IMG/VR virus record: IMGVR_UViG_3300010150_000186
Coordinates: 1-23,095 of that record
DNA: 23,095 nt
Origin: a virus
Reading direction: 5' to 3' (one strand)
The notes beneath the pieces are model-generated. The model was not told where the DNA came from. It saw nothing but the letters and a program-made list of their open reading frames with translations, and did not search any database. Made by a program: the position numbers and the translations under genes. Positions within the stretch are counted from its first letter, which is position 1; each line of letters begins with the position of its first letter. Shown here piece by piece: positions 10,045 to 23,095 of this stretch.

Positions 10045-11385
10045 ATGCAAGCTCCTGTATCTTACGACAATCTCGTAAAAAAGTGGGCTCCAGTACTGAA
10101 TGAAGAAACTGCTGGACCTATTTCCGACCATTACCGTAAGCAAGTAACTGCTGCGATTCTGGAAAACCAAGAACGTGCTATGCGTGAAGAAGCTGCTCAG
10201 TCCTCTTTTGGTCAGCTTAACGAGTACGGCACTGATACCTCTAAGGTTGACAACTTTGATCCAGTATTGATTTCTCTGGTTCGTCGTGCTATGCCTAACC
10301 TGATCGCATATGATCTGTGTGGTGTACAGCCAATGACTGGTCCTACTGGTCTCATCTTTGCGATGAAGTCCAAGTACAAGACCACTAAGGGTGCTGTTAC
10401 TGATTCTGATGAGGCTCTGTTCTCTGAAGCTCAGACTGGCTTCTCTGGTGACTCCGCATTCTCGCAAGGCACTGACCCATCCGGTCTTGGTGACTCTGCG
10501 TTTGCTGGTGACTCCGACATTGATAACAACCGTTCTACAGACATTTACGGTGAAGGTATCTCCACTGCTGATGCTGAAGCACTCGGTTCTACTGGTGCTG
10601 CTTTTGCAGAGATGGGTTTCACCATCGACAAGTCCACAGTAACTGCTAAGTCCCGTGCACTCAAAGCTGAGTACACAATGGAACTGGCACAAGACCTGAA
10701 AGCAATTCATGGTCTGGATGCTGAGACAGAACTCGCAAACATTCTGTCTGCTGAAATCCTTGCGGAAATTAACCGTGAAGTTATCCGTACCATTAACTCC
10801 CAAGCTAAGACAGGTTGCCAGACAGTAACTGGTTCCACTTCTTCTAAGGGTATCTTTGACCTTCAGGTAGATGCTGATGGTCGTTGGTCCGTTGAAAAGT
10901 TCAAGGGTCTGATCTTCCAGCTTGAGCGTGAAGCAAACCAGATTGCTAAAGACACCAGACGTGGACGTGGTAACTTTGTTCTGTGTTCCTCTGATGTAGC
11001 ATCCGCATTTGCTGCTGCTGGTTACCTTGACTACACCCCTGCACTTTCTAGCAACATGAATGTTGATGACACAGGCAACACTTTTGCTGGTGTACTTAAC
11101 GGTAAGCACAGAGTGTACATTGACCCATATGCAACCAATGACTACATTACCACTGGTTACAAGGGTTCCAATGCATACGACGCTGGTGTATTCTACTGCC
11201 CATACGTTCCATTAACAATGGTTCGTGCGATTGGTGAGAACACCTTCCAGCCAAAGATTGGTTTCAAGACTCGTTACGGCATGGTATCCAACCCATTCGT
11301 TGGTGCTACACCTGCAAACGGTCTGGCTGCTGCTAAGTCTAACCAGTACTACAGAATCTTTAGGGTTGATAATATTCTGGCATAA
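10045..11385 (+). CDS. 23: Major capsid protein (gp23)
   Basis: 446 residues (T4 gp23 precursor: 521). HK97-fold capsid protein with the conserved 'LVRRAMPNLIAYDLCGVQPMTGPTG' region (~75-99), the E-loop/insertion part around 110-190, the 'ELAQDLKAIHGLDAETELANIL' spine helix and the C-terminal 'YGMVSNPF' strand. A likely gp21 cleavage site is after Leu-Asn-Glu at 58-60, close to the position of the T4 site (Glu65). It is highly translated: SD AAGGAAGG upstream and smooth codon use. No separate vertex protein gene (gp24) follows. Confidence 0.97.
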   Translation: MQAPVSYDNLVKKWAPVLNEETAGPISDHYRKQVTAAILENQERAMREEAAQSSFGQLNEYGTDTSKVDNFDPVLISLVRRAMPNLIAYDLCGVQPMTGPTGLIFAMKSKYKTTKGAVTDSDEALFSEAQTGFSGDSAFSQGTDPSGLGDSAFAGDSDIDNNRSTDIYGEGISTADAEALGSTGAAFAEMGFTIDKSTVTAKSRALKAEYTMELAQDLKAIHGLDAETELANILSAEILAEINREVIRTINSQAKTGCQTVTGSTSSKGIFDLQVDADGRWSVEKFKGLIFQLEREANQIAKDTRRGRGNFVLCSSDVASAFAAAGYLDYTPALSSNMNVDDTGNTFAGVLNGKHRVYIDPYATNDYITTGYKGSNAYDAGVFYCPYVPLTMVRAIGENTFQPKIGFKTRYGMVSNPFVGATPANGLAAAKSNQYYRIFRVDNILA

Positions 11386-11404
11386 TAACAACTATAAATG
11401 TCAA

Positions 11405-11412
11405 TATAAATA
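11405..11412 (+). promoter_or_regulatory. T4-type late promoter after gp23
   Basis: An exact TATAAATA 20 bases after the gp23 stop. Late transcripts normally begin a few bases downstream, which would be at or next to the GGGGG of the hairpin at 11415. A near match (TATAAATG) lies at 11393. Confidence 0.7.
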
Positions 11413-11414
11413 CT

Positions 11415-11440
11415 GGGGGAGCAACTGCTCCCCCTTTTTT
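11415..11440 (+). terminator. Strong intrinsic terminator after gp23
   Basis: GGGGGAGC (11415-11422) pairs perfectly with GCTCCCCC (11427-11434) around the loop AACT, followed by six T. A textbook Rho-independent terminator for the head operon. Confidence 0.92.
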
Positions 11441-11453
11441 GTTGGAGATTTAA

Positions 11454-11969
11454 ATGGTAGAAGTATTAACAGCAAATAAAAATTACTTGCAACCTACTGG
11501 TTTTCGAGTAGTTATTGATAGAGAAAATTATCCTAACTTAGAATTCTTTGCACAGAGTGTAAACCACCCTGACGTTTCAATGACTGCTCCTAGTGTTCCA
11601 TACCCTCGTATCGGTAATGTGAGTTTACCGGGTGATACTGTTGAATATTCTGAATTAAGTATTCAGTTTCTTTTAGATGAAGACATGACTTCTTACCTTG
11701 AACTGTACAATTGGTTTGAGAGTATGGTCAATGAGAACTTTGCTGGTCCGGGTGCAAGGTCTTCTAGGAATTCAGACAGGGTTCCTACCCAAGCAGATAT
11801 TTCTGTTTCTATTCTTTCTAGTCACAATAATCAAACAAAAAGAGTAATTTACAAAGGATGTAGTCCAACATCTTTAAGTGGTCTACAACTTACCTCTATT
11901 GCAACCAGTGTAGAATATTTAACATTTGATGTTTCCTTTACATTTACAGGCTTTGAATTTAAAGGGTAG
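11454..11969 (+). CDS. Second tail-tube-like protein (gp19/gp54 superfamily)
   Basis: 171 residues with tube-fold features: N-terminal 'FRVVIDRENYPNLEFFAQSVNHP', 'VSLPGDTVEYSELSIQFLLDED' (~59-80), the helix 'YLELYNWFESM', and the closing strand 'YLTFDVSFTFTGFEF'. The same architecture is found in gp19 and in the baseplate tube initiator gp54. Its place between gp23 and uvsY is where marine T4-like phages carry a tail completion/tube-related gene, sometimes labelled gp3. It could therefore cap or initiate the tube. The exact T4 equivalent is uncertain; structure prediction would settle it. SD TTGGAG precedes ATG. The gene lies immediately behind the gp23 terminator, with the late promoter at 11405 supplying transcription. 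Confidence 0.75.
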   Translation: MVEVLTANKNYLQPTGFRVVIDRENYPNLEFFAQSVNHPDVSMTAPSVPYPRIGNVSLPGDTVEYSELSIQFLLDEDMTSYLELYNWFESMVNENFAGPGARSSRNSDRVPTQADISVSILSSHNNQTKRVIYKGCSPTSLSGLQLTSIATSVEYLTFDVSFTFTGFEFKG

Positions 11970-11980
11970 TGTGCTATAAT
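11953..11980 (+). promoter_or_regulatory. Sigma70-type promoter before uvsY
   Basis: TTGAAT (11953-11958), a 16-base spacer and a perfect TATAAT (11975-11980), 34 bases before the uvsY ATG. It suggests early transcription by the unmodified host polymerase of uvsY-PRTase-uvsW. Confidence 0.65.
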
Positions 11981-12014
11981 AAGTAGATTATAACTACACA
12001 CACAGGATTATATA

Positions 12015-12464
12015 ATGAAACTTGATTTAGAAAGCATCTTAGAGATGTGGAAAGAAGATTGTGAGATTGAAGAATTTAAATTAGATGAATCTTCCAGAAA
12101 GACACCTTCTCTACATGCAAAGTATCTAGAGATACGTTCTCTCACAAAACTCAGATTACAAGAAGCAGAACTTGCGCAGAAAACCCTGCTCAAGAATAAA
12201 TGGGCATACTATAATGGTAAAATGGATGAAGATACCATTAGAGAGTTTGGCTGGGAATTTGATCCGTTCAACGGTCTAAAGGTAATGAAGGGTGATATGA
12301 ATCACTTCTATGACTCAGACACAGACATTCAAAAGTCTGAAGTCAAGATTACCTATTATAAAACTATGTTGGAAACTCTTGAAGAAATAATTAATAACTT
12401 GAAATGGCGACACTCCACTATCAAAAATATGATTGATTGGCGGAAGTTTGAGTCGGGAGGCTGA
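12015..12464 (+). CDS. uvsY: Recombination mediator protein UvsY
   Basis: 149 residues (T4 UvsY: 137). The N-terminal 'LESILEMWKEDCEIEEFKLDESSRKTPSLHAKYLEI' and the C-terminal 'DIQKSEVKITYYKTMLETLEEIINNLKWRHSTIKNMIDWRKFESG' are the hallmark UvsY segments, both helical. UvsY assembles as a hexameric/heptameric ring that loads the UvsX recombinase on gp32-covered single-stranded DNA. It is the first gene after the sigma70-type promoter at 11953, with SD AGGA eight bases upstream. uvsX itself is outside the window. Confidence 0.93.
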   Translation: MKLDLESILEMWKEDCEIEEFKLDESSRKTPSLHAKYLEIRSLTKLRLQEAELAQKTLLKNKWAYYNGKMDEDTIREFGWEFDPFNGLKVMKGDMNHFYDSDTDIQKSEVKITYYKTMLETLEEIINNLKWRHSTIKNMIDWRKFESGG

Positions 12465-12465
12465 T

Positions 12466-12852
12466 ATGACATTATTTGTGAATGAAGAATTTACTTCTCA
12501 TGCTGGTCTACAACTAGGATGGAAGATCGAAATGGATGCACTCTATATGAGTGACTGGCGTTGTCTTGCTAAGATTATTCTAGAATATGAGAAGCGCCCA
12601 TTTCGTGAAGCAGTAGGTATTCCCCGTGGTGGTAAACGTCTAGGTGATATTCTAAATGAATCTGCTACAGGCAATCCTGATGACCCTGTTTTGATTGTTG
12701 ATGATGTATATACAACAGGCACTAGTTTCAGAGAATATATTGAAGAGAATTATCCTGATGATAATGTCATTTGTTGGGTTGTGTTTGCTCGCAATAAAAT
12801 CTACAAGAGACATATCAAAGCATTATTTCAAATGCCATCTAAGCCTGAATAA
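12466..12852 (+). CDS. Type I phosphoribosyltransferase-like protein
   Basis: 128 residues from the ATG at 12466, which has GGGAGG about eight bases upstream; the frame is open further upstream (ATG 12433) but that start lies inside uvsY without an SD. The PRPP-binding loop VLIVDDVYTTGTSF (75-88) and a pyrophosphate-loop-like GIPRGGKRLGDIL (51-63) mark a type I PRTase core. Substrate base is not evident. In marine T4-like phages a PRTase often sits between uvsY and uvsW, possibly for nucleotide salvage (inference). It starts one base after the uvsY stop and overlaps the uvsW start by one base (TAATG), so the three form one operon. Confidence 0.85.
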   Translation: MTLFVNEEFTSHAGLQLGWKIEMDALYMSDWRCLAKIILEYEKRPFREAVGIPRGGKRLGDILNESATGNPDDPVLIVDDVYTTGTSFREYIEENYPDDNVICWVVFARNKIYKRHIKALFQMPSKPE

Positions 12853-14333
12853 TGACAGATTTAGTAGTTAGACAGAAAAACTATTCCGCATTAGAAATTC
12901 AGTGTGAACCTCATGTAGCAAATGAATTGAATGATTTCTTCTCGTTTGAAACACCGGGATACAAATACATGCCATCCTACAAGAACGGTAGATGGGATGG
13001 TAAAACACGTTTGTTTAATGTTCGTAATAATGAACTGCCTGTAGGTCTATGGGAGTATCTGTCTGATTTTATTAAACCAAGAAACTATACACTTGGTGTG
13101 GAGTATGATAATCAGTATGGTACACCTGATGGAAAACTAGCAGTTAGACCCAAAGATGTTTATGATTTTATTCAGAAACTGAACTTACCTTTTGAAGTGA
13201 GGGACTATCAGTTTGATGCTATCTGTCAGGCACTACAGTCCAGACGTGCTATTCTACTGTCACCTACAGGTTCTGGCAAGTCACTAATTATCTATGTTTT
13301 GATGATGTGGTATCTAGAACATTATAACAAACGGTTGCTTATTGTTGTTCCCACTACTGGTCTTGTTCAGCAGATGTTCTCTGACTTTGAAAACTATGGG
13401 CTTGAAGCAGGTGAAGTCTGTCACAGAATCTATTCTGGTATGCCTAAGCACGATATTAAACAACGTGTATTCATTTCTACATGGCAGTCAATCTATAAAC
13501 TACCTAGTGGTTGGTTTGAACAGTTTGGTTGTATCTTTGGTGATGAAGTGCATAACTTCAAAGCAAAATCATTATCTGGTATTATGAACAAATCTAGAGA
13601 AGCAGAGTTTCGTATTGGATTGACAGGAACGTTAGATGGGACGCAATGTCACAAACTTGTGCTAGAAGGTCTATTTGGTCGTGTTCGTAAAGTAACCACG
13701 ACAAAAAAACTTATGGATAATGATACACTTGCAGAACTAAAGATTAATATCCTTGCTCTAAAGTATCCTCCTGAAGTTTGCCGTGATATTATAAATACTA
13801 AAGATTACCATTATGAAATTGACTACCTTGTTAGTAATATCAAACGTAATAGACTCATTCAAAATCTAGCATTAGATCAGGAAGGCAATACTCTTGTTCT
13901 ATTTCAGTATGTAGAAAAGCATGGTAAAGTTATCTATGACTTAATCAAGGATAAAGCACATGAACGGCGTAAGGTTTTCTTCGTATCAGGTGAAGTTGAT
14001 GCTGAAGTCAGAGAAGAAATACGGGGCATTGTTGAACAACAGAAAAATGCTATCATTGTGGCTAGCCTTGGTACGTTCTCCACGGGTGTAAATATTCGCA
14101 ATCTTCATAATATTATTTTTGCATCTCCATCTAAATCACAAGTAAAAGTATTACAGTCTATCGGTCGTGGACTTAGAAAGTCTGAAGATGGTAGACCTAC
14201 AGTGCTTTATGATTTGATGGATGATATGCATTATAGACAGAAAAAGAACTACACACTCTTACATGGTCTGGAAAGAATGAGGATATATAAGAAAGAAGAT
14301 TTCTCTTTTGAAATACACGAAATCAAAATGTAG
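12852..14333 (+). CDS. uvsW: RNA-DNA/DNA helicase UvsW
   Basis: 493 residues, full length against T4 UvsW (503). Superfamily 2 motifs in order: Walker A SPTGSGKS (137-144), DEVH box (231-234), motif III TGTLDG (258-263) and motif [12 protein letters not shown] (435-444). The N-terminal ~100 residues match the small UvsW substrate-binding domain ([14 protein letters not shown]). UvsW unwinds R-loops and branched recombination intermediates, ending origin-type replication and favouring recombination-dependent replication. The gene ends next to a homing endonuclease. An exact TATAAATA at 13790 inside the gene codes for part of D-I-I-N-T and is probably chance. Confidence 0.96.
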
Positions 14334-14335
14334 AT

Positions 14336-15013
14336 ATGTATAATATGTTTTATATATACGCATATTTGCGCAAAGACGGCACACCTTACTATATTGGTAA
14401 GGGTAAAGACAATCGAGCATTCTCTAATACTGGTAGAGCTTTCAGGCGACCAAAAGATGAAAATCGTATTGTTATAATGGAATCAAACTTGACTGAGTTA
14501 GGTGCTTTCGCATTAGAGAGAAGATATATAGAATGGTATGGTCGTAAAGATTTAGAAACTGGCACCCTACACAATCGCACGGATGGTGGTGACGGTATAC
14601 ACGGATACAAACACTCACCTGAGTCCATAAAAAAGATGAGTGAAGCACATAAGGGCAAAAAGCTTTCTGAAGAGCATAAAAGAAAAGTGAGTGATGCTCT
14701 TAGTGGTAGAAAGCTTTCTGAAGAACATAAAAGAAAAATGAGTGAGTTACGCAAGGGTAAAAAGCTTTCTGAAGAGCATAAAAGAAAAGTGAGTGATGCT
14801 CTTAGTGGTAGAAAGCTTTCAGAAGAGCATAAAAGAAAAGTGAGTGATGCTCTTAGTGGTAGAAAGCTTTCTGAAGAACATAAAAGAAAAATGAGTGCTG
14901 CTCAAAAGGGATTCAAACAAGAAATCGTAACTTGCCCTTATTGTCAAAAAACTGGTGGGAAAAACATTATGATGAGGTGGCATTATGAAAACTGTAAACA
15001 AAAAAGAACTTAG
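14336..15013 (+). CDS. GIY-YIG homing endonuclease with NUMOD3-like repeats and zinc finger
   Basis: 225 residues. GIY-YIG catalytic domain: FYIYAY (5-10), YYIGKG (18-23), catalytic Arg27, metal-binding Glu61 in [10 protein letters not shown] and Asn80 in [13 protein letters not shown]-contact region follows: a degenerate NUMOD3 unit ([15 protein letters not shown]) and five 17-residue units of KLSEEHKRK (109-193). A C2HC zinc finger closes the protein: Cys200, Cys203, His216, Cys220, in the CPYC...RWHYENC form common to phage endonucleases. It begins two bases after uvsW with no clear SD, so translation may depend on coupling. A free-standing homing enzyme would spread into uvsW-region alleles lacking it. 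Confidence 0.93.
14660..14914 (+). repeat. Five tandem 51-bp units in the endonuclease gene
   Basis: Units at 14660, 14711, 14762, 14813 and 14864, each beginning AAGCTTTC(T/A)GAAGA. Units 1, 3 and 4 encode the same 17 residues ([17 protein letters not shown]) with near-identical DNA; units 2 and 5 diverge in the last third. Each unit starts with a HindIII-type AAGCTT. Confidence 0.93.
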
Positions 15014-16248: not shown

Positions 16249-17301
16249 ATGAAAATTGCTCTACTGAACGATACCCATTGCGGCATTCGTAACTCTGGTG
16301 ATATCTTTCTTGATAATGCTGCTAAATTTTATGATGAAGTGTTCTTTCCTTATGTGAAAGAGCATAATATCAAGCAGATTGTTCATTTAGGAGACTACTA
16401 TGACAACCGTAAAGCAATCAATATCAAAGCTTTACACCACAATAGAAAGCACTTTCTTGAGCCTATGCGAGAATTGGGAATTAGAATGGATATTATTCCC
16501 GGTAATCATGATACTTATTATAAAGATACCAATAATCCAAACTCTCTCAAGGAGCTACTCGGGTTCTTTATCAATGAAGTTGCAATCATTGAAAAAGCCA
16601 AAGTATTGACATATGATAACCTCAAGTTTGCCTTGGTGCCTTGGATAAATAAAAGTAACTATGAAGAAACTATGGATTTTGTCCGTAACTGTAAGGCGGA
16701 TATTTTAGGTGGTCACCTTGAACTAAGTGGGTTTGATATGATGCGTGGCCTTAAAAATGAACACGGGATGGACCCTTCCCCATTTAAAAGGTTTGATATG
16801 GTTTTTTCTGGTCACTACCATACAAAATCTAATATTGATAATATTCATTATCTTGGCACTCAACTAGAATTCTTCTGGTCTGATGCTGGTGATAAGAAGC
16901 ATTTTCATGTTTTAGATACAGAAACCCGTGAGCTATCAGCAATTCACAACCCACATACTCTCTTCAAAAAAATTGTTTACAATGATGAAAAATACGAGTA
17001 TAATAGTGTTCAGAATTTGAAAGATAAGTTTGTAAAAGTAGTTGTGGTAAAGAAAACTAATCCTAAGATGTTTGAAGACTTTATTGATATGATTCAAGAG
17101 CAAGACATTCATGAACTGAAGATTGCTGAGAACTTTGATGATGTTTTGTCTGATGTTGATGATGCTAAGATTTCTTTAGAAGACACCACAACACTGCTAG
17201 ATAGTTATGTAGATGCTATTAGAACTGATCTAAGTAAAGATAGATTGAAAACTGATATGCGAAATCTCTACAATCAAGCGCAGACATTGGAATTAGTATG
17301 A
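16249..17301 (+). CDS. 47: Recombination endonuclease subunit gp47 (SbcD/Mre11-like)
   Basis: 350 residues (T4 gp47: 339). Calcineurin-like phosphoesterase motifs: D-x-H at NDTH (7-10), GDYYD (48-52), GNHD (85-88), GGHLE (154-158) and SGHYH (187-191), all with metal-binding residues intact. With gp46 it forms the Mre11-Rad50-type exonuclease that resects DNA ends for recombination-dependent replication, and it degrades host DNA. It begins one base after gp55. A four-base overlap (ATGA) couples it to the next small gene. Here gp46 is separated from gp47 by about 4 kb of other genes. Confidence 0.96.
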   Translation: MKIALLNDTHCGIRNSGDIFLDNAAKFYDEVFFPYVKEHNIKQIVHLGDYYDNRKAINIKALHHNRKHFLEPMRELGIRMDIIPGNHDTYYKDTNNPNSLKELLGFFINEVAIIEKAKVLTYDNLKFALVPWINKSNYEETMDFVRNCKADILGGHLELSGFDMMRGLKNEHGMDPSPFKRFDMVFSGHYHTKSNIDNIHYLGTQLEFFWSDAGDKKHFHVLDTETRELSAIHNPHTLFKKIVYNDEKYEYNSVQNLKDKFVKVVVVKKTNPKMFEDFIDMIQEQDIHELKIAENFDDVLSDVDDAKISLEDTTTLLDSYVDAIRTDLSKDRLKTDMRNLYNQAQTLELV

Positions 17302-18504: not shown

Positions 18505-19455
18505 ATGGACTATATTTCAATCTGGATGGTCGTAGGTTTTCTACTTGCATCCTACTCAGTAATCGCCAACGATTCTGTTCAGACGCTAGGAACATGGATC
18601 GCTTCAAATCAAAAAACAAACCGATTAATTATGTGGGGTGCAGCGTCAGCAGTCCTACTCTTTACTATCTGGTTCGGCTGGTACAGCAATGGGGGGGATA
18701 TCTCCTACGGTCGACTCAACAAAATTCCTTTTCAGGAAATTCAATGGTATCATGCACTCGCTCCGGCAGTACTTCTTGTACTGACTAGGTTCGGTGTTCC
18801 TGTATCTACTTCATTCCTTGTACTGTCTGCATTTGCTTCAACGTTCATCTTGGAGAAAATGCTGGTTAAGTCTATTATGGGATATGCCATTGCTGCTGTA
18901 TCCGCATACGGTATCTGGTTTATCATTAGTAAACTGTTAGACGAATCAGAACCTGTAAAAGATAATCATCGAAAATATTGGGTGGTTGCTCAGTGGGTAA
19001 CTACAGGATTCCTCTGGTATACATGGCTCAGTCATGATATGGCAAATATTGCTGTGTTCCTACCACGGGTAGTCCCTATTGAAATGATGTTCGCAATCTC
19101 TATCATCTTTGTAGCTGGTCTATATTGGATGTTTAGAGAGAACGGCGGACGAATTCAGAACGTTGTTATTAGTAAGCATAATACACGTTATGTTCGTTCC
19201 GCTACTATTATTGATTTGTTTTACTTCCTGATCCTCTGGATTTTCAAAGAAGTAAACGATATTCCAATGTCCACAACTTGGGTGTTCATTGGTCTCCTAA
19301 CAGGACGTGAGTTGGCTATTGCTACATTCACTCAGAAGCGTAAGTTCAAGACAGTCTTCCCGCTTGTCGGTAAAGACTTCTTTAAGATGATGATTGGACT
19401 CGCCGCCTCTGTTGTGATTGTGGTTCTTATCCACTCATTCTTGCAACCTCAATAG
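18505..19455 (+). CDS. PiT-family inorganic phosphate permease
   Basis: 316 residues with about 8-10 hydrophobic helices. The internal duplication of the PiT family is visible. Repeat 1 has IANDSVQTLGTWIASN (20-35) and GVPVSTSF (97-104); repeat 2 has SHDMANIAVFLPR (176-188) and DIPMSTTW (252-259). These match the two G-x-N-D-x-x-N signatures and the two P-(V/M)-S-T-(S/T) turns that build the phosphate/cation site. Each signature has one Asn replaced: the second in repeat 1 (Gln26) and the first in repeat 2 (His177), so it belongs to a divergent subfamily. It should insert in the host inner membrane and import phosphate (or metal phosphate) driven by an ion gradient. SD AAGGAA precedes ATG; a terminator follows. 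Confidence 0.85.
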   Translation: MDYISIWMVVGFLLASYSVIANDSVQTLGTWIASNQKTNRLIMWGAASAVLLFTIWFGWYSNGGDISYGRLNKIPFQEIQWYHALAPAVLLVLTRFGVPVSTSFLVLSAFASTFILEKMLVKSIMGYAIAAVSAYGIWFIISKLLDESEPVKDNHRKYWVVAQWVTTGFLWYTWLSHDMANIAVFLPRVVPIEMMFAISIIFVAGLYWMFRENGGRIQNVVISKHNTRYVRSATIIDLFYFLILWIFKEVNDIPMSTTWVFIGLLTGRELAIATFTQKRKFKTVFPLVGKDFFKMMIGLAASVVIVVLIHSFLQPQ

Positions 19456-19466
19456 AGGTACATCTG

Positions 19467-19500
19467 AAGGGGGAGTGTAAAAATTCCCTCTTTTTATTTT
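19467..19500 (+). terminator. Hairpin terminator after the PiT gene
   Basis: AAGGGGGA (19467-19474) pairs with TCCCTCTT (19485-19492) with one G-U pair around a ten-base loop, followed by a T-rich tail (TTTATTTT). It separates the permease from the binding-protein gene. Confidence 0.7.
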
Positions 19501-19529
19501 AAATATACTAAACAAGGAAACTGCAAACC

Positions 19530-20633
19530 ATGCTAAAGAAAATCTTTGCATCCCTCACCCTCTCTATTGCAACTGCAACTGCTGCATTTGCTGAAACCAA
19601 AGTAGGGTTCATCTATGTAGGTCCGATTGGAGACCTTGGATGGACTTACCGACATGATGTTGGTCGTCTTGCTGTAGAAGAAGCCTATGGTGCAGACGTG
19701 TCTACTACCTATCTGGAAATGGTCCCAGAAGGACCAGAAGCAGTTGAAGCCATTACACAACTGGCAGAAACTGGACACGATATTATTTTCACTACCTCTT
19801 TTGGTTACATGGACGCAACGAATGAAGTTGCTGCTAACTACCCAGACGTGGCTTTCGAGCATGCTACTGGTTATGTCCGTGATACTGATAACATGGCAAC
19901 CTTCTCCGCACGATTCTATGAAGGTCGTGTAGTTCAAGGTTTCATTGCTGCTAATATGACTGAATCTAATAAGATTGGTTATATTGCATCTTTCCCTATT
20001 CCAGAAGTAGTGCGTGGTATTAACGCATTTATGCTGGAAGCACAGAAGCACAATCCAGATATTGAAGTAGAAATTATTTGGCTCTACACTTGGTTTGACC
20101 CTGCAAAAGAAGCAGCAGCCGCACAAGCATTGATTGATGAAGGTGCAGATATTATCGTACAGCATACTGACTCACCTGCACCTGTGCAGATTGCAGAAAA
20201 GAATGGCGTCTATGCATTTGGTCAGGCTTCGAATATGTCTCGGTTTGGTCCTAATGCGCACCTCGTTTCTATTGTAGATGATTGGGATACTTACTATGTT
20301 GATCGTGTAGGTGAAGTAATGAACGGCACTTGGACTGGTGGTGATACTTGGTGGGGTTTCACTAAAGACGGTAAAGGTGGTGAAGTCGGCATGGTTGCAC
20401 TTGAAAGTTACAACACAGCCGCAATGGGTGCAGGTCTTGTGCAGCAAGCACAGGTACTTGAAGCATCATTGGCAAATGGTGATCGACATGCATTCCCATG
20501 TGAAGGTCTGTTGAAGCAAGATGGTTCTGTTCCTGATGAGTGTGCTGCTGGTGCAGAACATTTGGATGACTGGCCAACTCTGCTGTCTATGGATTGGTAT
20601 GTAGAAGGTATTGAAGCATCACTGCCGAACTAA
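19530..20633 (+). CDS. Periplasmic BMP-family substrate-binding protein (PnrA/BmpA-like)
   Basis: 367 residues. A Sec signal peptide is clear: Lys3-Lys4, a hydrophobic core to about 19, and A-F-A|E cleavage after Ala21. There is no lipobox Cys, so it would be soluble in the periplasm. The mature protein follows the BMP fold: KVGFIYVGPIGDLGWTYRHD (25-44), 'HDIIFTTSFGYMD', 'FSARFYEGRVVQGFIAANMT', 'GYIASFPIPEVVRGINAF' and 'GADIIVQHTDSPAP'. Relatives feed ABC importers for purine nucleosides or bases. No ABC permease or ATPase gene is in the window, so it would have to work with the host importer. SD AAGGAA precedes the start. The gene looks recently acquired and intact. Confidence 0.9.
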   Translation: MLKKIFASLTLSIATATAAFAETKVGFIYVGPIGDLGWTYRHDVGRLAVEEAYGADVSTTYLEMVPEGPEAVEAITQLAETGHDIIFTTSFGYMDATNEVAANYPDVAFEHATGYVRDTDNMATFSARFYEGRVVQGFIAANMTESNKIGYIASFPIPEVVRGINAFMLEAQKHNPDIEVEIIWLYTWFDPAKEAAAAQALIDEGADIIVQHTDSPAPVQIAEKNGVYAFGQASNMSRFGPNAHLVSIVDDWDTYYVDRVGEVMNGTWTGGDTWWGFTKDGKGGEVGMVALESYNTAAMGAGLVQQAQVLEASLANGDRHAFPCEGLLKQDGSVPDECAAGAEHLDDWPTLLSMDWYVEGIEASLPN

Positions 20634-20638
20634 CCAAT

Positions 20639-20815
20639 TTGTATGTTGTCATCCATTATGATGACAAAGACTGGTGGGCGCCTCCTACAACGGTGTCCAC
20701 CAGACTGCCTTACTATGAGGCAATGGATGAATATGATAGACTACAAAAGAATAGTGACCCAAATGACACATATCAGGTATTCATGGTAGATTGTAAAATA
20801 ATTGGAAAAAAGTAG
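20639..20815 (+). CDS. Unknown 58-residue protein with TTG start
   Basis: Frame 2 reads a plausible small protein: LYVVIHYDDKDWWAPPTTV, RLPYYEAMDEYDRLQKN, DTYQVFMVDCKIIGKK. There is a beta strand, a helix with A-M-D-E-Y-D and a final strand. No SD is seen; TTG at 20639 is the only standard start near the 5' end and lies five bases after the stop of the binding-protein gene, so coupling is possible. Alternatively its true start was lost when the transporter genes were inserted. Two inverted repeats (20646-20667, 20671-20703) lie within its first third. The general look, a short Y-x-V-x-x-Y-[DN] protein, recurs in T4-like phages, but I do not recognise a family. Confidence 0.5.
   Translation: MYVVIHYDDKDWWAPPTTVSTRLPYYEAMDEYDRLQKNSDPNDTYQVFMVDCKIIGKK
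20646..20703. repeat. Two consecutive inverted repeats after the BMP gene
   Basis: TTGTCATC (20646-20653) and GATGACAA (20660-20667) form a perfect eight-base stem with a six-base loop. CTGGTGG (20671-20677) and CCACCAG (20697-20703) form a second seven-base stem with a 19-base loop. No U-tract follows either. Confidence 0.6.
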
Positions 20816-20847
20816 TTGACATACCTTTCAGACTATGCAACTATAAA
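20816..20847 (+). promoter_or_regulatory. Probable sigma70-type promoter before a small gene
   Basis: A perfect TTGACA (20816-20821), directly after the stop of the preceding frame, is followed by TATAAA (20842-20847). The 20-base spacer is longer than the usual 16-18, so strength is uncertain; an activator or another -10 could be involved. Confidence 0.5.
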
Positions 20848-20877
20848 GCATAACCTCTTCACTGAAAGGAAAACAAA

Positions 20878-21533: not shown

Positions 21534-21567
21534 ACTCTTCATTATGTTTGAGTGATTAGGAGAAGTC
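21507..21567. repeat. Long inverted repeat spanning the gp46 promoter and SD
   Basis: GACTTCCTAATCA (21507-21519) is matched by TGATTAGGAGAAGTC (21553-21567): 13 base pairs with a two-base bulge (AG/TC). The left arm lies in the promoter spacer; the right arm contains the gp46 SD (TAGGAG, 21557-21562). Confidence 0.8.
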
Positions 21568-23095
21568 TTATCATTAAGTTTCATTCTGTTCAGTATCGGA
21601 ATTTTTTAAGTACCGGGAACAATTTTACAAAGATTGAATTAGACAAGGCACCTACTACTTTGATCGTAGGTGCTAATGGTGCAGGTAAATCTACTATGCT
21701 AGATGCACTGTCATTTGGTCTATTCGGAAAGCCTTACAGAAACATCAACAAACCACAACTTATCAATACTATTAATAGCAAGGATTGTGTGGTCGAGGTC
21801 GAGTTCTCCGTCGGTCCTAGCAGGTATAAAGTTATTCGGGGTATCAAGCCTAACGTGTTTGAAATTTACAAGAATGGTGAGGTTATTAATGAATCTTCCC
21901 ATGCTAAAGAATTTCAGAAACTACTAGAGCAAAACATTCTGAAACTAAATCACAAATCGTTTCATCAGATTGTAGTGCTTGGCTCATCCTCTTTTATTCC
22001 TTTCATGCAACTGACTGCTGCGCATAGACGTGAGGTTATTGAAGACCTCTTGGATATTAATATCTTTTCTAAGATGAATATTGTTCTGAAAGACAATATT
22101 GCTAGTCTGAAGGATAAAATCCGTGATGCTGCACATCAGGTAGATATTGTCAAGAATAAGATTGATGTTCAACGCAAATACATTAGTGATATTAAGAATC
22201 TAAACGAGGAAAAGAACCGTGAGAAGCAAATTGAAATCAAGACGCAGGAAGATACAATTGAGCAGATCAATCTTGAAAATGAAGAAATACAAGAAACTCT
22301 TGCAGCAAAGTATGATCAGGTCTCAGACCGATTAGTAGAAGCAGGTCAGTCTTTTCAATCTGACCAACACAAAAAGACGCAACTTAAAACGGAGATGAAT
22401 AGACTTGTTAAAGAGGATAAGTTCTTTCAAGACAATGACGTTTGCCCGACTTGTACGCAAGAGATTAACCAGACTATTAAAGAACAAAAGTCTAAGGGTA
22501 TCTCAGCGCAAGCGAAGAAAATCCAAAAGACGTTTCAGACGCTAGAAGAGCAACTGTTTGCTGGTAAAGCATTGGTAGATGAACTTCAAGAGCAGAGTAA
22601 GCAGTCTATGGAATTACATGCTGCTATGCGTGACAATAATACTAAGATTAGTATGTCTCGCAAACTTATTCAAAAGTTAGAGCAAGAGATTACTGATACA
22701 TCTGATAGTAAAGATAATATTGTTCAGGCTAACAAAGACCTTGAAGACTTTATTGATGAGAAGGATGGTCTACTTACACATAAACTAGAACTGTCTGAAG
22801 AATACGACTACAGCAGTGTGATTGCTGATATGCTGAAAGATACTGGTATCAAGACCAAGATTATTCGGCAATATCTGCCTGTGATGAATAAACTGGTTAA
22901 TCAGTATCTACAGACACTGGACTTCTTTGTTCATTTTGAATTGAATGAAAGTTTTGGTGAGACTATTCGTTCACGGCACCGTGATAGTTTTTCTTATGAC
23001 TCTTTCAGTGAAGGTGAGAAGCAACGCATTGACCTTGCACTGCTGTTTACATGGAGACAGATTGCTAAGATGAAAAACTCTGTAGCAACCAATCT
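21552..23095 (+). CDS. 46: Recombination endonuclease subunit gp46 (SbcC/Rad50-like), 3' end cut by window
   Basis: About 514 residues are visible (T4 gp46: 560). The N-terminus has IKFHSVQYRNFLSTGN and Walker A GANGAGKST (40-48, counted from the GTG). Then come the Q-loop region 'FHQIVVLGSSSFIPFM', a long coiled-coil with the CPTC zinc hook (Cys298, Cys301), and the ABC signature FSEGEKQRIDLALL (485-498). Walker B lies beyond the end. With gp47 it forms the end-resecting nuclease complex. No ATG exists at the 5' end: an in-frame TGA at 21549 is followed by GTG at 21552 without SD. The SD TAGGAG at 21557 would instead serve ATC (21570) or ATT (21573), giving M-I-K-F or M-K-F, close to family starts. 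Confidence 0.95.
   Translation, partial: MIRRSLIIKFHSVQYRNFLSTGNNFTKIELDKAPTTLIVGANGAGKSTMLDALSFGLFGKPYRNINKPQLINTINSKDCVVEVEFSVGPSRYKVIRGIKPNVFEIYKNGEVINESSHAKEFQKLLEQNILKLNHKSFHQIVVLGSSSFIPFMQLTAAHRREVIEDLLDINIFSKMNIVLKDNIASLKDKIRDAAHQVDIVKNKIDVQRKYISDIKNLNEEKNREKQIEIKTQEDTIEQINLENEEIQETLAAKYDQVSDRLVEAGQSFQSDQHKKTQLKTEMNRLVKEDKFFQDNDVCPTCTQEINQTIKEQKSKGISAQAKKIQKTFQTLEEQLFAGKALVDELQEQSKQSMELHAAMRDNNTKISMSRKLIQKLEQEITDTSDSKDNIVQANKDLEDFIDEKDGLLTHKLELSEEYDYSSVIADMLKDTGIKTKIIRQYLPVMNKLVNQYLQTLDFFVHFELNESFGETIRSRHRDSFSYDSFSEGEKQRIDLALLFTWRQIAKMKNSVATN

Follow-up and report, generated by a model that had tools for sequence, protein, structure and literature searches.

A marine T4-like phage encodes an orphan Bmp-family protein with a predicted purine-base pocket that may serve a host importer

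The sequence analysed comprises positions 1 to 23,095 of IMG/VR record IMGVR_UViG_3300010150_000186, and this whole stretch is referred to here as the window. A gene for a Bmp-family protein (BMP) runs complete from ATG to TAA within it (Table 1), preceded by a plausible ribosome-binding site (aacaaggaaactgcaaaccATG). The product matched Pfam Bmp (PF02608) over residues 23–281 with an E-value of 2.1e-53 and 181.7 bits, against a gathering cut-off of 24.1. Direct reading of the N terminus (MLKKIFASLTLSIATATAAFA, followed by ETKVG) revealed a basic n-region, a hydrophobic core, and AFA preceding Glu22, as expected of a Sec-type signal peptide; neither a twin arginine nor a lipobox Cys is present in this signal. 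A preliminary description of the locus had proposed a secreted Bmp protein with signal peptide and full length intact, and the complete reading frame, the family match, and the AFA–Glu site all agree with it. Scanning of PHROGs with BMP returned zero matches, and a full-length viral structural match was not found in BFVD. A vitamin B6 role was also considered and is unsupported, the NCBIfam match to the B6-type BMP being weak, partial, and far under its cut-off.

Table 1. Positions of the BMP gene, its neighbors, and selected genes of related phages (window coordinates unless a contig is named)
Feature	Position	Strand	Evidence
BMP gene, predicted AtzT/3S99-type purine-base-binding periplasmic protein (Bmp family), 367 aa	19530..20633	+	Pfam, PDB sequence matches, model and fold match, pocket
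Predicted Sec-type signal peptide, residues 1–21, AFA before E22	19530..19592	+	Read from sequence; kept in relatives; low pLDDT over residues 1–18, as expected
gp47 homologue, left border of cargo region	16249..17301	+	Gene calls/Pfam; gp47 and gp46 adjacent in relative C48C1
gp46 homologue, right border of cargo region, runs off window	21552..23093	+	gp47 and gp46 adjacent in C48C1
Terminator-like hairpin with T tract, between PiT-like and BMP genes	19466..19493	+	Similar hairpins ahead of BMP in L010 and L012
PiT-like membrane protein of the phosphate permease type (316 aa); ND...T and P-x-ST motifs in two repeats	18505..19455	+	PDB profile match; adjoins BMP in relatives
Phosphoribosyltransferase-like small protein with PRPP motif, candidate partner	12475..12852	+	Pfam, PDB profile match
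PstS, between PiT and BMP in relatives	L012 8918-9928; L013 5679-6668; L007 8942-9931		
PF00152-type core gene	L005 6134-6949	-	
PF00152-type core genes	L175 4973-5812; L164 4983-5813		

An AlphaFold2 model of BMP (mean pLDDT 89.9) adopts the two-lobe type-I periplasmic binding fold. The nearest solved sequences were 3S99 from Brucella melitensis (E-value 7.7e-105) and AtzT from Pseudomonas sp. ADP (PDB 6PI5/6PI6/6PII; 3e-89), with PnrA reaching just 3.8e-5, and fold matching gave Z scores of 47.7 for 3S99 (330 residues, rmsd 1.8 Å), 46.6 for AtzT, and 33.8 for PnrA. AtzT and 3S99 thus share the fold of BMP over about 330 residues (Z 46–48), at 44–52% identity in structural alignments and with the same purine-base pocket architecture. 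The nucleoside-binding Bmp proteins PnrA/TmpC, BmpD, and Lbp have family and fold in common with BMP (Z 33–37) but are far more distant from it in both sequence (17–19% identity) and fold; they were solved with bound nucleosides and several are lipoproteins, whereas BMP looks soluble and falls in the base-binding subgroup. Unlike AtzT and 3S99, BMP is phage-encoded, and its C-terminal segment is longer than theirs; AtzT has a TAT signal, whereas that of BMP is predicted to be of the Sec type.

In the available text of the AtzT paper (PMC6834077), guanine is contacted by Tyr45, Ser97, the Phe98 backbone, Glu165, Trp194, Asn218, and Asn220, with KD values of 110 nM for guanine and 2.5 μM for adenine; 2-hydroxyatrazine is also accepted, and the ligands are given as bases and triazines, not nucleosides. 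For 3S99, the same text records adenine as the modelled ligand. By sequence alignment (paper numbering = chain index + 5, anchored on Ser97–Phe98), these positions map to W38, S90, F91, E159, W188, H212, and D214 of BMP, which therefore has Trp, His, and Asp where AtzT has Tyr45, Asn218, and Asn220. All seven base-contacting residues are those of 3S99, comprising an aromatic sandwich together with Ser, the Phe backbone, Glu, and polar contacts, and they were invariant in a 35-sequence alignment (A1), kept in 65/65 distinct phage copies compared, and all kept in 78 of 79 bacterial copies. This identity with 3S99, together with the invariance, points to a pocket of the purine-base-binder type, although with His212 and Asp214 in place of Asn218 and Asn220 the preferred base may differ from that of AtzT. 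Loss of the pocket residues and clustering with non-transport proteins, which the preliminary description had named as outcomes that would speak against it, did not occur. As a ligand it had suggested a compound such as a purine nucleoside; the purine part of that suggestion is supported and the nucleoside part becomes less likely, the nearest characterised relatives being binders of bases.

BMP is surrounded by T4-like genes, namely those for terminase, sheath, tube, portal, prohead protease, scaffold, major capsid protein, UvsW, the gp55 late sigma factor, gp47, and gp46. The major capsid protein is 64.6% identical to that of Phage C48C1 and 59% identical to that of pelagiphage HTVC008M. A second IMG/VR record of 67 kb, from another sample, is 99.8–100% identical over the shared stretch and extends 45 kb beyond the window into tail and baseplate-type genes. 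Because this record agrees so closely and continues in phage genes, host contamination or a chimaera is very unlikely and the BMP gene belongs to the phage; contamination was rejected on the basis of T4-like flanks in many contigs as well as the second assembly. The BMP gene sits in a genuine T4-like marine phage. Just 3′ of uvsW, positions 14336-15013 encode a putative GIY-YIG-type homing endonuclease with tandem repeats, which is missing or different in several relatives.

The genes for gp47 and gp46 are direct neighbors in C48C1 and are split, in the window and its relatives, by a cargo region that holds small unknown genes, a tRNA-Gly, the PiT-like membrane protein, BMP, and more small genes. 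Gene order around BMP is conserved across many contigs. The position of the hairpin ahead of BMP suggests that the gene may be transcribed separately. In a scan for T4-like late promoters, the match ahead of BMP carried one mismatch, and such matches were not clearly above chance in the window. The sole PDB profile match of the PiT-like protein was the phosphate transporter 6L85 (E-value 3e-4); its Pfam scan gave zero matches, and its AlphaFold model had a pLDDT of 37.6. Relatives of this protein were found in 350 stretches of viral contigs, in 5 of 240 alphaproteobacterial genomes, and in none of 50,697 deposited phage records, making it a candidate for a common, unnamed phage transporter. 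In several relatives of the phage, a gene for the phosphate-binding protein PstS (PF12849, E-value 2.6e-46; TIGR02136) lies between PiT and BMP; PstS is absent from the window, and the gp47–gp46 interval appears as a hotspot for gain and loss of nutrient genes. The phosphoribosyltransferase-like (PRTase-like) protein carries a PRPP motif (VLIVDDVYTTGTS). It matched Pfam Pribosyltran at 4e-4, under the cut-off, and its best solved match by PDB profile was the orotate enzyme OPRTase (E-value 0.002), so that a salvage role is only a suggestion. There were 52 relatives of it in viral contigs and 0 in the deposited phage collection.

A profile scan of the viral collection identified 426 stretches encoding BMP relatives, and the best 80 of the 426 were fetched. 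The gene occurs in the gp47–gp46 cargo region, directly 3′ of the major capsid gene, and in other settings. It adjoins PiT in L192, L300, and L306, and a 2OG-Fe(II) oxygenase and/or a PRTase-like gene in L175, L282, L320, and others (the PRTase-like relatives adjoin it in those three); the PiT–BMP, PstS–BMP, and PRTase–BMP pairings recur across different phages. An ABC ATPase or permease was found in 0 of 101 phage stretches, some of which share a contig. Among 23 whole related virus records (about 640 kb; none known to be a complete genome), BPD_transp_2 gave no match, and ABC_tran matches were confined to gp46- and clamp-loader-type genes. The earlier statement that BMP comes without its ABC permease and ATPase thus holds for the window and these 23 records. 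Compared with the window copy, phage BMP copies had dN/dS of about 0.05–0.13 at dS mostly of 0.6–1.4, so the copies have been maintained, and they are under strong purifying selection; together with the intact, conserved pocket, this favors the earlier view that the gene is likely functional. The deposited-phage collection yielded 14 BMP matches, which are 25–38% identical, all from unannotated 'Bacteriophage sp.' entries, and faecal where a source is given; these were left out as evidence.

Bacterial homologues were examined at 80 loci. The cognate ABC permease was present at 78/80, usually about 100 bases upstream of the BMP homologue, and a purine gene lay within the fetched flanks at 47/80. 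XdhC was found at 34 loci (TIGR02964 above cut-off for the representative), the xanthine dehydrogenase small subunit at 27, and adenosine deaminase near the BMP homologue at 5. All 11 Pelagibacteraceae loci carry a phosphoribosyltransferase, and L111, a low-GC bacterium outside the 80 loci, has the order permease–permease–BMP–phosphoribosyltransferase (PF00156, 83 bits, cut-off 26). Judged from gene neighborhoods, and independently of the pocket, these bacterial neighbors support a purine as the probable ligand.

A maximum-likelihood tree of 144 BMP proteins (quick search, SH-aLRT support only) needs five changes between phage and bacterium, at least four of them forced by strongly supported branches. 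The gene thus appears to have been taken up by phages repeatedly, with at least four transitions, some of which could be losses rather than gains. One phage copy (L021 to L023, L281 in the tree) lies within a Rhodobacterales branch. The clade of the window is sister to L025/L026/L027, a lineage of marine alphaproteobacterial MAGs, with which it has in common an insert and the C-terminal segment; among the aligned sequences, no other lineage shares the latter. In samples of 240–385 alphaproteobacterial genomes, BMP (72%) and the relatives' PstS (73%, the next being 59%) both had their best match in this lineage, which is therefore the likely host, or recent host, of the phage as judged from gene origin. 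Its genomes carry a full importer in the order ATPase–permease–permease–BMP, with a BMP 70–72% identical to that of the phage; the phage has the binding protein alone.

Taken together, we propose that BMP is an orphan binding protein for purine bases and increases purine supply during infection by docking on a host importer, a reading to which we assign a probability of roughly 0.7. The gene would have originated in a marine alphaproteobacterium, as part of an operon for an ABC importer. Its product would pass through the host Sec pathway during infection, bind periplasmic adenine, guanine, or a similar purine base, and dock on the resident Bmp-type permease–ATPase complex, the extra binding protein raising purine uptake. 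Phosphoribosyltransferases of the host, and perhaps of the phage as well, would then turn the bases into nucleotides for phage DNA; the adjoining PiT-like protein and, in relatives, PstS would raise phosphate uptake likewise. The preliminary description, which is partly supported overall, had the binding protein plug into a host importer and redirect it toward its ligand. Because the likely host lineage already has a 70–72% identical BMP together with permeases and ATPase, boosting of the existing importer is more likely than its redirection to a new ligand. More broadly, marine T4-like phages may carry a modular purine and phosphate scavenging kit that turns host importers into suppliers for viral DNA, assembled repeatedly from the orphan BMP (captured several times and placed at several genome positions, including behind the major capsid gene), the PRTase-like protein, and the PiT-like protein and/or PstS; to this wider proposal we would give even odds.

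Three other explanations were weighed. The importer could be hijacked in the same way, but with a nucleoside of a purine, or a different compound resembling purines, as the physiological ligand instead of a free base. The wider family does include the nucleoside binders PnrA, BmpD, and Lbp, the five adenosine deaminase loci would suit such a ligand, and AtzT accepts 2-hydroxyatrazine as well; nevertheless, BMP retains in full the base-type pocket seen in the AtzT/3S99 group, and the xanthine dehydrogenase and phosphoribosyltransferase neighbors act on bases, making this variant rather unlikely. Binding proteins can also have chemotaxis roles, and a function other than uptake, be it as a periplasmic sink, a chemoreceptor partner, or a superinfection modulator at the cell surface, would be compatible with the failure to find a permease in the phage stretches and records searched. 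The repeated association of BMP with PiT-like, PstS, and PRTase-like genes speaks instead for supply, and the bacterial homologues lie in complete importer operons, so that we consider a non-uptake role improbable.

That BMP is a functionless passenger, brought in recently with host DNA or created by the assembly, draws some plausibility from the copy inside the Rhodobacterales branch, as recent transfers do occur. Against it stand the agreement of two assemblies, the gene order conserved over many contigs, the low dN/dS, and the four or more transitions on the tree, and we regard it as very improbable. Uptake of a purine base through the host importer remains the preferred reading.

Orphan substrate-binding proteins are already known from marine phages in the form of PstS, which was reported in 31 of 153 cyanophage genomes (review, PMC10452541). 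Like cyanophage PstS, which is thought to raise nutrient uptake in infection, BMP is an orphan ABC substrate-binding protein of a marine phage. The two differ in that PstS binds phosphate and belongs to PBP_like_2, whereas BMP is predicted to bind a purine base, belongs to the Bmp family, and here probably serves phages of non-cyanobacterial hosts. To our knowledge, the phage nutrient genes of this orphan type described so far concern phosphate, and what would be new is the predicted purine-base ligand class. A phage protein of the Bmp/AtzT type was not described in the literature searched, where journal coverage was partial and evidence of novelty correspondingly weak; the available text of a pelagimyophage paper (PMC7029224) mentions substrate-transport genes, with no Bmp/AtzT-type gene among them. 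With no PHROGs match and only distant, unannotated deposited contigs, yet hundreds of viral-contig stretches, the gene seems to represent a trait that is common among uncultured marine phages and has been overlooked. If the proposal is correct, phages would draw on nucleobases dissolved in the surroundings of the infected cell, in addition to recycled host DNA and host synthesis, and the claim is testable with one phage protein, one host importer, and one measurable flux.

Several further genes were observed in BMP-carrying phages. In one group, a 2OG-Fe(II) oxygenase (DIOX_N and 2OG-FeII_Oxy) lies directly 3′ of BMP (L175 3624-4484, L309 7053-7907, L320 2893-3759). In several phages, the genes for BMP, the PRTase-like protein, and PiT are accompanied by one for a class II aminoacyl-tRNA-synthetase-like catalytic core (PF00152; phrog_29758). 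L017 has an aldolase-like gene, so called without Pfam confirmation, beside its BMP copy, together with a DAHP-synthase-family (KdsA-like) gene (11174-11968 and 19968-20855), and L301 encodes a tryptophan-halogenase-family protein just 3′ of the late sigma factor (11559-13040). The L016 phage encodes a GMP reductase (18928-20064; 525 bits against a curated cut-off of 397) and also carries BMP and, at another place on the record, PiT.
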